Shown here in pieces: positions 40,126 through 51,518 of a stretch of DNA of 64,000 nt; positions within the stretch are counted from its first letter, which is position 1; each line of letters begins with the position of its first letter. The position numbers and the translations under genes were made by a program. Under the pieces are notes generated by a model that saw nothing but the letters and a program-made list of their open reading frames with translations, had not been told where the DNA came from and ran no database searches. The stretch comes from Gyromitra esculenta. Taxonomy: Eukaryota; Ascomycota; Pezizomycetes; Pezizales; Discinaceae. The stretch covers positions 620,001-684,000 of the forward strand of contig JBCAML010000006.1 of the NCBI GenBank assembly GCA_038503075.1. Reading direction: 5' to 3'.

Positions 40126-40529
40126 TAGGCAACACAATTTATTTTCCACGGGAGCAAGCGAGATATATTTTGCAAACTACAATTTCTCGTAGATTTTCAA
40201 GCATCTCTTATTTTTGAACAGCTTGGTTCTTTGGATGGGGGAGGAAAAAAGTAATCCTAGCAATCAATTATCGAGTGAGAGCGTGTGCATTGCACATGAC
40301 CCTGGCCCTACCACACACGAATCGAATATTGGTCATACAATACATTTGTGTACTCAGACAGTCAGACTCCAGTCGCTGTGACTCAGACTTCCAAAATTCC
40401 TTCCACAGCAAACCTCGCCCCGTTTTCGAATTCTCGAACAATGAGTATTCCAACCCTGGGCTTTATATATCCTATAATGTGTGTTCTCCCCTCTAGATCT
40501 TCCGGAGGGCTTTCTTGCCGCTGTCTCTA

Positions 40530-40678
40530 CAGCCTTCGGTAGAATTATTGAAAAACTGTGGCAACTCAGGACCTAAAGCGTTCATCGATCTTCCAGGCGA
40601 TTCGGAAAGGGTTTGGCAGTGGTATTGGCTGCTCGTTCGCCTACCCTCATGTTTCTACGATAATTCTACCAGAGACTG
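40530..40678. mobile_element. MITE family CAGCCTYCGG, copy 1
   Basis: A 149-bp element with ends CAGCCTTCGGTAGAATTA and, on the other strand, CAGTCTCTGGTAGAATTA. It is clearly homologous along its length to 48604-48756, sharing for example GTGGCAACTCAGGA and GGTATTGGCTGCT. The left flank is TA; the right flank is TG, probably a mutated TA. Confidence 0.88.
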
Positions 40679-41552
40679 TGAAAGGCAACATGCACATATT
40701 CGTTAATTAGCAGATGATGAAGTCTCACGCCTCATGAGGTTTTTGAATGGTCACACGGTGTGTTGCAAGAATACACAGACGACTACTCAACCTGATCTAG
40801 AACTCTTGTTGGGTGAGGCTCAGGCAATTCCGTACTTCTATTTTAAGTAATTTTATCTCCAGCCTCAAGGCCCCCCTGCATGAGATCTTGCTCGCATCTT
40901 CAATATTGTAATCCAGAAGCCCCTACAGCATCCATTTGGATCTACTTACTCTATCAGCAGTCTCTTAGATTCCATTTCTCTTCGAGAAACTCAACCGCGT
41001 GTACATTACTAATAGTAAAATATAATATGTATCTCTAAGAAGGGGTGGTGGAATACTCAACGATGACAGGGAAAAAGCTCCTCGATTCGTTTTCTTGTTT
41101 TGTCCCGGCCTGCTGGTGTAGATTTAGGTAGCCTGTGGTTCGGTACACACCCTATTTGTTTTCTGGTGTACGCATGTCATCTCTTGAAGCTGTTAGTCAC
41201 TGTTCTTCCAGCCTCTACGTGGCCCAAGTATATAAAGCGTTGCGTTTCCCAGCCTAAACAGAAGTCTTTCGTTCTCTTCCACTACATATACTACTATCGA
41301 ATTAGTTTGTTCAATATCTTCCTAGCCACAAAACTCAAACCATTGGTTGTTCCTGGTACAAAACACTCGTCCATAAGGGCTCAACTATAAGTGTATCGCC
41401 TTCCCGCAACAAGAAGGTTGGTTCTGGAAAGGGAATTAAGTGTTAGTTTCTCTTACTTTAGATTGAAGGTAGCCTGCTTGCCTCTTCTTGTGTTGATGCA
41501 TGAAGTCTCATATCCTTCTAGCTAGACTATCCGTGCTTCACATTTCGAAGCC

Positions 41553-46232: not shown

Positions 46233-47032
46233 AGGTTTTGCAGCGGAGTGTGTACTAAAGCAGGGGTGATCGATCTGGTTGGTGGGGGATAAATCTTGAG
46301 TGAGGTTTTGGGGGAGGGGAAACAAGGTCACCATACCGGATCTGATGCCAGGAATGAGGTCCAGTCAACCACTCAAAGTATTTGTCTACATGCTCCTAGC
46401 TTTGTTTATCTCACCTATATGTTGTATGAGCTCTTCGTTGCACTAATTTGATGTAAAAAATAGTCTGCATTTTTCTTAAGATTTTCCAGTTCTATACCTT
46501 CCCCATCACTTCCCTACCATCACCGTGGTAACTGCCCCGCAGCCTAGTACGCACTTCGCTACAAAACCTCCCATTGTACATGTCGTCAAGTGCAAGATTT
46601 TCCATGCGCTGCTACTGGCTAGTCAAGGCTACATTTACTTAAAGGGATATATATATGTACTTTATTGCTTATTATGTAATTGAGCTCATGGTCATATCGG
46701 TGGATTGATAGTATATCCTGTTACTACGAATTACATATGGTTATGATGCACGCACAGATAAATGTAGACCAATCAATTCTCTCCGTTGAATGCCTTAGTC
46801 TTACCGATCATGCCAAGCCACCCACAAAAATTTGCAAGAAACCCTTCAGTTTATATATCTCTGTCGCTGCCGCCCCTAATGCAAAGTCCTTTTGAATGTA
46901 TGTACTCTCTCTATATCAGTCCTTGAATTTACTACCAAAGCAGAAAAGATACAATGATGGGTGATGCGTATGTTCAGTCGTATTCTCAGTATTTCTCAGA
47001 ACGTTCCACTTTGCGCTTTTTACTTGTTAGCA

Positions 47033-47156
47033 GGCATACGAACCAGAAAACATGGGGAGTGTACATGTAGCTTTGTACGCTGCGGCATTAGGCATGGATT
47101 CCGTAGCATACAAAGCCACACCCCCGTGTTTTCTGGTTCGTATGCCTGCTAACAAG
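47033..47156. mobile_element. MITE family CTTGTTAGC, copy 1
   Basis: A 124-bp palindromic element with both ends CTTGTTAGCAGGCATACGAA, extending inward as CCAGAAAACA. It is flanked by TA on both sides. Its arms form a near-perfect hairpin. A second copy lies at 48404-48532. Confidence 0.95.
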
Positions 47157-47339
47157 TACAGCTAAATTCCAAGTTTTATTCCGCCGCAGCCACATTTTGC
47201 AGAGCCCTGTAAGAAGATACACCTTTATTAGAGTAATTGTAGATATCGTATCTTTTCCTGAGCAATTTGGCTGGCTGTGGGTGTGGTTATAAGGGTCAAA
47301 AGAGGTGGTCTACATCGTAATTAAGCATTGCGCGCACTA

Positions 47340-47473
47340 CAGTCGCACCTCAGTAGGACTTCGTACAAGATAGCAGATTAATTTTGGTGAGCAAAAAAGA
47401 TTATAGTAGGAGGATCCGTACGAGATAGCAAGGGATCCAACAGAGCGAGATCCGACATAGCGAGGTGCGACTG
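47340..47473. mobile_element. pogo-like MITE CAGTCGCACCTC
   Basis: A 134-bp element with ends CAGTCGCACCTC on both strands, flanked by TA. The right end read on the minus strand continues GCTATGTCGGATCTCGCT, very close to the right end of the larger element at 48007-48918, so they belong to one family. Confidence 0.9.
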
Positions 47474-48198
47474 TATATAAACAAGACCCTGTGTATTCTA
47501 CATCTATCATGATCATGTTTGCGTCGGCGATTCTCGAAAACTCTTTTTTGTCGGCTGATCGGATTCAAGCAGAGAGTTTGCCGATGTATATATCTGAAAC
47601 ACGTCTCAGTTTGTGCTTGGCAGCTTCGGATCTTTTTTCTTAGTATTTTGTCATGTACAACCTTCCTGAAATTGGACTCAGCATAACTATGAGGACTTCA
47701 GGCTCATCTTGAATATTCGTGGGCACACGAATCGAATCTACAAGCAATATACGTATATTGAGATAGCAAATTAGAAATAGTAATCCGTCGTATCATGATA
47801 GATTTGTATGAGACCCAGCGCTCCTACCGAAAACACGAATGTGGATTACATGTAAACTTTACTTGAGTTTAGACCTCTCTTATAACGCAATTGCTGGGGA
47901 GAGTTTCTTTTGCTGCAAAATATGCCATATATAGCTGCACTCCTGAGGCACAGCACGGAACACAGCGTTCCCGTGCTGCTAATGCCCGGGAACTGGGTAA
48001 TACCTACAGTCGCAACTCGATATGCCGGATGCCAAGTATCGGGTGGATTCCATACGTGATAGCAAATTATCCGCAATAGCCAATGATTCCTAAGCCCAGG
48101 GCACCATAAAATCTTAGAGTTAGGGGCTTGGGTCTATGAAAGATAGCGCCCCCTAATAGGTATAAACATCGGGTGCTAAGCTAAGAAAATCTGTGATA

Positions 48199-48583
48199 TG
48201 GTGCGAGAGGGCGTAAAGGGTGAGTTGGGCAAACTGCCTACACCCTCTTCAAAAAAAGATTTGTTAGCAAAGCTACAATCAAAAAACCACATTCTGAGGG
48301 AATGTCACCAAATTTGTGGCTTTAATCACCCATTTTCGTCTCTTGGAGGCCGCCAAAAGCCTCTTTTGCTGTTTTCAGGATTCTGATTGGCTAAAATCAT
48401 CTACTTGTTAGCAGGCATACGAACTGGAAAACATGGGGTGTGTGGCTTTCTATGCTACGGAAACCGTACCTAATGTCGCAGCACACAAAGCCACACCCCC
48501 CGTGTTTTCCGGTTCGTATGCTTGCTAACAAGTAAAGGTGTGGACCAGCTGGCCCAGCTCACCCTTTACGCCCTCCCGCACCA
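48199..48583. mobile_element. MITE TGGTGCGRGAGGGCG, inside the outer element
   Basis: Ends TGGTGCGAGAGGGCGTAAAG and, on the other strand, TGGTGCGGGAGGGCGTAAAG, continuing GGTGAG on both sides, flanked by TA. It is 385 bp long including the inner 129-bp element; about 254 bp belong to it. Confidence 0.92.
48404..48532. mobile_element. MITE family CTTGTTAGC, copy 2 (innermost)
   Basis: A 129-bp copy of the family at 47033, TA-flanked, with arms CTTGTTAGCAGGCATACGAA and, on the other strand, CTTGTTAGCAAGCATACGAA. It lies wholly inside the TGGTGCG element, so it was the last of the three to arrive. Confidence 0.95.
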
Positions 48584-48603
48584 TAGCAAATACTATTTAT
48601 ATA

Positions 48604-48756
48604 CAGCCTCCGGTGGAATTATTGTAGAATTGTGGCAACTCAGGATCTAAAGCTTTTATTGGTCTTCTAGGTTTATCGGAAAGATCTTGACTGCGGTATT
48701 GGCTGCTTGGGCGTTCGCTTACCATTGTTTTCCTACAGTAATTCTACCAGAGGCTG
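48604..48756. mobile_element. MITE family CAGCCTYCGG, copy 2
   Basis: A 153-bp homologue of 40530-40678, here with TA on both sides. It lies inside the outer element (48007-48918), 20 bp to the right of the TGGTGCG element. Confidence 0.92.
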
Positions 48757-49519
48757 TAGTAGCAGGGATCTAATATCTCCCACCTACCATACAGCACGGG
48801 ATAGCGGAAAATCCGGGACAGCAAATTAATTTTGGTGGTGGAAATCCATAACAGCAAAACTTGTACGTGACAGCGAGAGATCTGGGGCAGCGAGATCCGG
48901 CATATCGAGTTGCGACTGTAATGATGATTTAGTGCGCCTGCGGAACTCGGTGATGCTACAAGCCTCAACTACGATCCTTTGCCCATCTGGGTACTCTTAA
49001 TCGGGCACTTCAAGAAACAACTTCATCCATGATCACTGTAGTGGTTATTTCTTTTAGCTCCTTCACGAAGCAGATAGGGTTAAGCCTTCGCGCTATCCCT
49101 ACACTCTTGATACTCTAGAGCAGTACCGCTTATTATTTGTTGGTTTTTGGTAATCAAAGTAAACGGTACCCGGAAGAACGCTCCCGGTGTCAGTTTAACG
49201 AAATATCCCATTGAAGAAAGCCAGGGGACTCGAATAATCCGTCATTAAAGGCCTAAACGAGGCCCGCTTACCAAAAAATGTGCCGTCTTTTCCACAGCCT
49301 TTCCTCCTTTCTCCTAGAGGCTGAGGGCACTAAGAATTCGAACAGAGGGCATCACTAAGAAGTCTGTGTCCTGCCTGTACCAGTCTTTATTGATGTGCCC
49401 TTCCCTCGTTTTTGATTTCTTGACTTCTCTCTCGTGATCACTACTTCCTTGTTTGGGGCCTCAATTTTTTGTACCTTATAGCATACTGCTTATACTTTTG
49501 TCCGAACTGCTCTGTTAGG

Positions 49520-51518
49520 ATGTGGAAAATTAAGTTTCTCAACTCTTCTGCGCGTCTTGCAGTACTGGCGGGTATTATGCTTATGGTATGCTGCGTCGCT
49601 GTGACTGCGACTGCGACTGCGACGGAAGATTCCGACAATATCTCTGGGATGATAACAACTAGCAGTATTCCCACTGATATATCTAACTCGGCAAGTTCAT
49701 TTGGGGGCATTATTGCAGTTAGTACTACCTCAATACTACTTTATATTTACACTTTTAGGTACACCGAGACAGCCTACGGCCTAAAAATGCTGATATTGTA
49801 TATGTATAATATGTAGTGCGCAGTTCTGACTGGCGTCTTTTGGGGCAAAGTCTCATACCCATCCTCTTCGGTTTATGGTGACGAGAATGCATATTGGTGT
49901 AAGTCCATTATCTTAAGTACGCGATGGGATATTCACACTCATTTTGTCAAATAGCTGCCACCGCGGTTCTCTCACCTTCGTGTATATTTAGTCCTAAATC
50001 TGCCCAGGATGTGTCAATTGCTGTCAAGATCTTGGTCTTGGCTAAAGTTGAATTTGCCATCAAAGGTGGCGGACACACTGCCAACAAAGGTTGGGCTAAC
50101 ACAGACAAAGGAATTCTTATCTCGTTATCTGAGTTGGACACTCTTGAGGTTACGCCTGGAGCCGACTATGTCCAGGTTGGTGCCGGGCGTCATTGGGAAG
50201 AAGTTTACAGCTATTTAGATGCGAAGCAACTAAGTGTTGTTGGTGGGCGTATGACTGGAGTTGGCGTTTCTGGATATTTGCTTGGTGGAGGAATCTCCTA
50301 TATTTCTAACGAAAGAGGATTTGGATGTGACAATGTTAAAAACTACCAGGTATGCACAAGTACATTTCTAAAGAGCTTTGGTCTTGGCTAATCTGCTTGC
50401 ATATAGATTGTCCTTGCGGATGGCAGCATCGTCGATGCAAATGCTCAGACTAACCCAGACCTGTTCAAAGCGCTCAAAGGTGGTACTAACAACTTTGGGG
50501 TTGTGACTCGTTTCGATCTTTATACCTATAAAAGTACTGGGGTATATGCTGGGTCTCTTTACTACATGGAAAACAACTTCGATGCGCTATTCAATGCTAC
50601 TGCAAATTATGCGATTGGCAATACCGATCTGAAAACACATGTTATCCCGGCATTTGTTTCGTTGCCAGGCTATTCGATTGCTGCTTTTTACGTTTTCTCC
50701 AGTGATCCTGTCACTTCGCCACCAGCAGCGTTACAGCCCTTTTTCAACATTCCGACTTTCACAAACACCGCAAGGCTTACGAATTTTACTAGCGCTACTC
50801 AGGAGTTAGGAGCCGGTGACGTTTTTGGCATGAGGTTAGTCTGGTATATAGCTTGTCATTCTTTGGGGCATTAAGTAACCATGGTTTTGTATCTTGGTAG
50901 GCACTATCTCCAAGCCTTAACAATCGTGGCCGACACCTCACTCTACAAGGATATCTATGCAATTTTTAAGGAAAACAATGCGCCATTGACCTCATCAGTC
51001 AATGGCTTTCAAGCTTCCGTTGCATACCAGCCACTTGGTGCTAGTGTTATTGCAGCTGGTGTAGCTCGTGGAGGCAACTCTTTAGGACTCAGCGCGAGTC
51101 AGGGGACTCCGACCTGTATGAACTTCTGCTTCTTTATTGTACGGGTTACAAGGCCTACCGATTAACTCTCACTATCGTAGGCTTGAACTTCAACTATCGC
51201 TGGGCGAATACATCCGACGATGACATAGTAAAGGCCGTTGCGAACACAGTAATCACCAAGGCTTCCAGCCTCGCTAAATCTAGAGGTCTCTTCAACCCTT
51301 ATATGTAAGTGACCGTCACTCTCTCGGCGCATATATCGTAAAGGGTACTCATCCCTTTCGGGTAAAATAGTTATCTCAATTACGCAGACGCAAACGCAGA
51401 TGTCATCGAGAACTATGGAGCGCAAAACGTGAAATCACTCCAGGCTGCGAAGAAGAAATATGACCCCAAAAATATTTTTGGGACACTTGTGAAGGGTGGT
51501 TTTAAGGTGCCTCGGTGA
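49520..51518 (+). CDS. Secreted FAD-linked oxidase (berberine-bridge type)
   Basis: Oxidises small organic substrates using covalently bound FAD. Seven exons (49520-49717, 49817-49898, 49955-50349, 50407-50834, 50901-51115, 51181-51304, 51371-51518) encode 529 residues with every phase consistent. The N-terminal hydrophobic stretch (about 10-30) ending TATATATEDS is a likely signal peptide. YWSATAVLSPSCIFSPKSAQ opens the FAD-binding PCMH domain. GGGH with His134 is the flavin-attachment His, and GFGCDNVKNYQIVLADGS is typical. The second (Cys) FAD attachment site of bicovalent members is replaced by VVGGRMTG, so a single covalent link is predicted. The C-terminal substrate domain ends with the family hallmark NYG, then KKKYDPKNIFG. 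Such enzymes often sit in secondary-metabolite clusters, but no cluster partner is visible. The first intron (GTTAGT to ATGTAG) is the least certain. Confidence 0.92.

Follow-up and report, generated by a model that had tools for sequence, protein, structure and literature searches.

Published work already covers nested insertions of miniature inverted-repeat elements and the reading of relative ages from nesting. The Stowaway-like MITEs of carrot (DcSto) are described as forming nested and clustered insertions, with the same position hit repeatedly, in a paper that also cites nested-MITE work in maize and rice (PMC3695323). The Mycosphaerella graminicola genome has been credited with 78 putative nested repeat clusters and 13 MITE families (PMC4522978), the paper on the Trem elements of Paracoccidioides states that relative transposon ages have been estimated from nested insertions (PMC2836289), and an analysis of interruptions in mammals has used nesting to judge relative age (PMC2517846). 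The available portion of a paper on Umbilicaria transposons holds nothing on MITE nesting (PMC8773270), and the 17 texts containing one of five end motifs from this study include no transposon paper, as judged by title and start of abstract.

The locus described here is a stack of four such elements. Like the DcSto elements, they are short, non-coding and nested, with inverted ends and a TA target duplication; however, DcSto comprises plant families sharing a conserved 6-bp end unlike those of our four, and the present stack is three-deep and probably fungal (PMC3695323). With the Trem Tc1/mariner elements it shares a fungal host and a TA target, although those elements encode transposases and the four in the stack are non-coding (PMC2836289). 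The Mycosphaerella clusters likewise consist of element-in-element insertions in a fungal genome, but are mostly of LTR retrotransposons, whereas the stack is made of MITEs (PMC4522978). The TA target is also that of the pogo/Fot1 family (PMC7325037); in the loci examined here, no transposase with HTH/CENP-B-like and DDE domains was found between ends like those of the outer element. The stack is real and clean, yet an ordinary kind of transposon nesting, and it leaves the accepted view of how such elements work unchanged. It offers a clean worked case: sequence divergence points the same way as the nesting order, and a point change probably created one target TA ahead of its use. It also provides four MITE families with exact ends, lengths and copies.

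An inverted-repeat search of the window (the whole stretch of 64,000 nucleotides that was analyzed) resolved 48007-48918 into four inverted-repeat elements nested three levels deep:

48007..48918, plus strand: outer element, family CAGTCGCAACTCG, ends CAGTCGCAACTC; defined by inverted repeat, other copies and exact limits; 370 bp after removal of inserts; TA at 48005-48006 and 48919-48920
48005-48030/48895-48920: outer arms, 26 nt including TA, 100% complementary
48199..48583, plus strand: middle element, family TGGTGCG; defined by arms and other full-length copies; 385 bp in place, 254 bp minus the hairpin; TA at 48197-48198 and 48584-48585
48194-48236/48546-48588: TGGTGCG arms, 43 nt, 88% complementary
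48404..48532, plus strand: inner element, CTTG family, ends CTTGTTAGC; defined by arms and other copies; a 129-bp near-complete palindrome that folds into one long hairpin; TA at 48402-48403 and 48533-48534
48402-48459/48477-48534: arms of the inner element, 58 nt, 88% complementary
48604..48756, plus strand: side element, CAGCCT family, ends CAGCCTCC; defined by arms and other copies; 153 bp, within the outer element and adjoining the middle one; TA at 48602-48603 and 48757-48758
48602-48627/48733-48758: arms of the side element, 26 nt, 88% complementary

All four elements have TA directly outside either end. The list of open reading frames (threshold 80 aa) contains none of at least 80 aa in 48007-48918, and a search of 46800-49600 against Rfam returned nothing reaching the gathering score. 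The sequence-only reading had proposed four MITE-type elements, three deep, with intact ends and TA at both sides, and the inverted repeats and exact limits bear this out. The four are short, have terminal inverted repeats, lack open frames of at least 80 aa and occur in many copies with target duplications, as MITEs do, and they insert at TA with duplication of TA, as is characteristic of the IS630/Tc1/mariner superfamily.

The genome (47.1 Mb in 23 contigs) is likely that of a filamentous ascomycete: an M18 aminopeptidase exon has protein matches at 79-85%, with lower-ranking ones named from Arthroderma, Exophiala, Flavoplaca and Ascosphaera, while a match to fungal rhodopsin scores 24.6 bits, short of its cut-off of 27. 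We then counted the ends of each family across this genome (at most one mismatch, both strands), using the reversed pattern as control. The outer end pattern was recovered 77 times against 5 in the control, 13 of the 77 being exact and many of the inexact matches belonging to a sister family with ends CAGTCGCACCTCG. The CTTG pattern was found 232 times (control 25) and the CAGCCT pattern 124 times (control 0); for TGGTGCG there were 32 matches against 12, so that several of the 32 may be due to chance. The repetition of these end patterns across the genome is not a chance effect. Among the fetched loci, the outer family has eight uninterrupted full-length copies with 74-90% identity, five of them bordered by TA on both sides (one side is changed in L024 and L028, and both in L026). 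The middle family has seven at 83-95% identity, the best being L041 at 95%, with TA on both sides in five and one side changed in L046 and L047. L134 is an eighth full-length copy, and the family is small, with nine full-length copies seen. Six full-length CTTG copies (86-98% identity) all retain both TAs, as do eight of nine CAGCCT copies (80-94%).

Relatives of the outer and middle elements, for which the sequence-only reading had suggested a search, were found to read through the insertion points. Fifteen outer copies run uninterrupted across both points. At the TGGTGCG point 14 of the 15 have no TA: ten show GACAG, four have other sequences without TA, and GATAG occurs solely in L038. Since the window has GATAGC where most other outer copies have GACAGC, the TA entered by the TGGTGCG element probably goes back to an earlier C-to-T change. 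At the CAGCCT point, TA is kept in 14 of 15 copies, having been lost in L040, and L028 has extra repeats. Ten middle copies (L041-L047, L134, L138 and L139, the last two incomplete) read through the CTTG point, nine of them with TA and one, L046, without. The other copies of each family and these read-through relatives thus leave the proposed stack standing.

Anatomy, nesting, further copies and read-through sites are matters of direct observation; we regard it as very probable that the stack consists of four non-coding MITEs that arrived by at least four separate insertions at TA, each of which duplicated the TA. The outer element would have inserted first; a C-to-T change in this copy (GACAGC to GATAGC) then probably created a TA, at which the TGGTGCG element would have inserted. 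The CAGCCTCC element would have entered a nearby TATATA run either before or after this event, and the CTTGTTAGC hairpin would then have inserted into the TGGTGCG element. Of the order of arrival proposed earlier, the outer element coming first, TGGTGCG and CAGCCT later, and CTTG after TGGTGCG all hold, but the placing of CTTG after CAGCCT does not: the nesting leaves CTTG and TGGTGCG each unordered relative to CAGCCT. Likewise, the relative clock orders these single insertions but says nothing on the activity periods of the families, a CTTG copy at L110 being itself interrupted.

Sequence divergence provides a second, rough clock. In family trees of 11 outer, 13 CAGCCT, 8 middle and 25 CTTG sequences, the terminal branches of the window copies measured 0.084 for the outer element, 0.056 for CAGCCT, 0.033 for the middle element and 0.016 for the CTTG hairpin, values that are rough because many copies were chosen for similarity to the window and the CTTG family was fetched in part. 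Tests on counts rounded from branch times length (31/370, 9/153, 8/254 and 2/129, in the same order) gave a longer outer branch than the middle (p=0.005) and CTTG (p=0.003) ones; the remaining differences were not significant (outer-CAGCCT p=0.22, middle-CTTG p=0.29, CAGCCT-middle p=0.14, CAGCCT-CTTG p=0.056). Divergence thus roughly agrees in direction with nesting, with a clear difference only for outer-middle and outer-hairpin. Repeat-induced point mutation was considered as a distortion of this clock and rejected, the outer family showing no CpA excess: its C-to-T rates by 3' neighbor are 0.097 for CA, 0.093 for CC, 0.085 for CG and 0.084 for CT. In the CTTG and CAGCCT families the rate is highest at CG (0.070 and 0.093), and in the middle family at CC (0.053) and CA (0.051).

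Interruptions and close associations of these elements also occur elsewhere in the genome. Twenty outer loci were fetched, of which 19 show outer similarity. Two of these carry a clean interruption: L030 contains a CAGTGCTTCCC element, and L031 (G000:C4:988800-990600) contains a 183-bp CAGTCGCACCTCG element at 712-894, which lies in the same TATATA run as the CAGCCT element of the window and 4 bp away from its position. Others, such as L021, L025, L029, L032, L035 and L040, are deleted, truncated or replaced internally. A CAGCCT copy (L112) is interrupted by a CTCGTATTCTC element, and the CTTG copy at L110 (G000:C2:665450-666100, about 190-437) by a GGGTGCCGGGG element with ends GGGTGCCGGGGTAAGTCTGTCAC, whose flanks look like GTAC on either side rather than plain TA. 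At L138 (G000:C8:1926900-1927500, 99-340) a CTTG element directly adjoins a TGGTGCG element that is cut off, with one TA in common; at L053 (G000:C23:159400-160500, 327-645) three features follow consecutively, namely an end resembling that of TGGTGCG, a diverged hairpin of CTTG-like type and a CAGCCT element. L115, L116 and L051 hold pairs of CTTG elements separated by 13 to 115 bp, both relative orientations being represented, and such close pairs could reflect local hopping.

Among the positions listed (42 for CTTG, 41 for CAGCCT), pairs within 500 bp number three for CTTG-CTTG against 0.018 under uniform placement, one for CAGCCT-CAGCCT against 0.017, and two for CTTG-CAGCCT, one of them the window, against 0.037; the uniform null is too simple, so this excess is a lead only. 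There is about an even chance that the crowding has a simple cause, namely that only gene-poor, TA-rich stretches tolerate MITEs, which nest there by chance, with no preference for one another. The stack indeed lies inside a segment, between 44773 and 49441, that has no open frame of at least 80 aa, and 14 of the 15 outer copies offer the TATATA run for insertion; against this, the close-pair counts lie above the uniform expectation, though that null is too simple to settle the matter. A more tentative suggestion, which we hold to be possible but on the doubtful side, is that the genome harbors a community of apparently orphan TA-targeting MITEs that land in or beside one another. It draws on the excess of close pairs, the insertions 4 bp apart in the window and L031, and the abutment at L138. 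If it holds, a chronology for the whole genome could be read from nested copies without recourse to mutation rates, and local hopping may occur in the 129-bp hairpin family.

As to the source of mobility, the genome contains 29 DDE_1, 40 DDE_3 and 25 HTH_Tnp_Tc5 domain matches, and we examined 49 transposase loci, comprising all 29 DDE_1 and 20 of the 40 DDE_3 matches, with about 1.5 kb on each side. None of the four stack end types borders a transposase element in these 49 loci. Searching them with the four ends at two to three mismatches gave two matches (L064 and L075), both derived from neighboring MITE copies; the match at L075 to the outer end is exact, but is part of the neighboring MITE. 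A looser version of the outer end (8 of 25 mismatches) matched ten loci, with 7.3 matches expected from shuffles. The inverted repeats that do flank the transposase loci are of other types, such as ACGAAACTTACCC, CAGTCCCTATTCAG and CAGTGCCGTTCGC. Inspection by eye of the listed ends of the four families (for CTTG and CAGCCT, about the first 100 of 232 and of 124) placed none within 3 kb of a DDE_3 match. The outer element had been called pogo-like on the strength of its end letters, and its CAGT...CTCGATAT end is one that we take to resemble those of pogo/Tigger. This label remains unproven: the loci examined contain no partner with such ends, the 29 DDE_1 loci showing no HTH_Tnp_Tc5 plus DDE_1 gene between CAGTCGCAACTC-type ends, and Tc1-type (DDE_3) elements in this genome likewise start with CAGT.

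Length, ends, TA duplication and the lack of coding sequence fit mobilization in trans as MITEs, and the best reading is of four apparently orphan MITE families of the TA-targeting Tc1/mariner type. Each element would have been cut and pasted by an end-recognizing DDE transposase of the IS630/Tc1/mariner superfamily, and the partner elements may have been lost, be too diverged or lie beyond the loci examined. The hairpin element invites a different proposal, that its movement relied on some other route using its hairpin rather than on a TA-specific DDE transposase: it is a near-complete 129-bp palindrome, CTTG elements occur as close pairs, and no partner with hairpin ends was found in the 49 transposase loci. 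We consider this improbable, as TA stands at both sides in six of six CTTG copies and the read-through site has a single TA, as predicted for a Tc1/mariner-type insertion. Separately, around G000:C22:881417-882337 the L075 locus carries an open frame of 554 aa that matches DDE_1 and HTH_Tnp_Tc5, and shows no clear inverted repeats; a CAGTCGCACCTCG MITE adjoins this frame, which is perhaps a captured pogo-type gene.

We also searched the genome for the junction between the middle and CTTG elements and found an exact match at the window only, two places with two mismatches and the rest with three; the total of 47 is close to the 42 of the reversed control, so the matches outside the window are chance or plain middle elements. 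Queried with the whole 912 bp, with 40 of 318 candidates scored, the genome gave at least 75 matches; the left flank (47480-48006) matched itself only. That the stack is a single compound element, or part of a segmental duplication, brought here whole by movement or copying, its order having arisen elsewhere, is largely refuted by the junction search and very improbable: L138 is another place where a CTTG-type hairpin lies next to a TGGTGCG-type end, and L053 has the succession of three described above, but the hairpin of L138 sits at the border, its middle element crossing the CTTG point with TA intact, the left flank is single-copy, and among the 75 matches listed only the window itself matches the full 912 bp end to end.

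Outside the stack, the window carries, within about 1 kb to its left, a second CTTGTTAGC element and a CAGTCGCACCTCG element (47023-47156 and 47340-47473, 134 bp each and TA-bordered), and farther away, at 40528-40679, another CAGCCT element, diverged to 78% identity.
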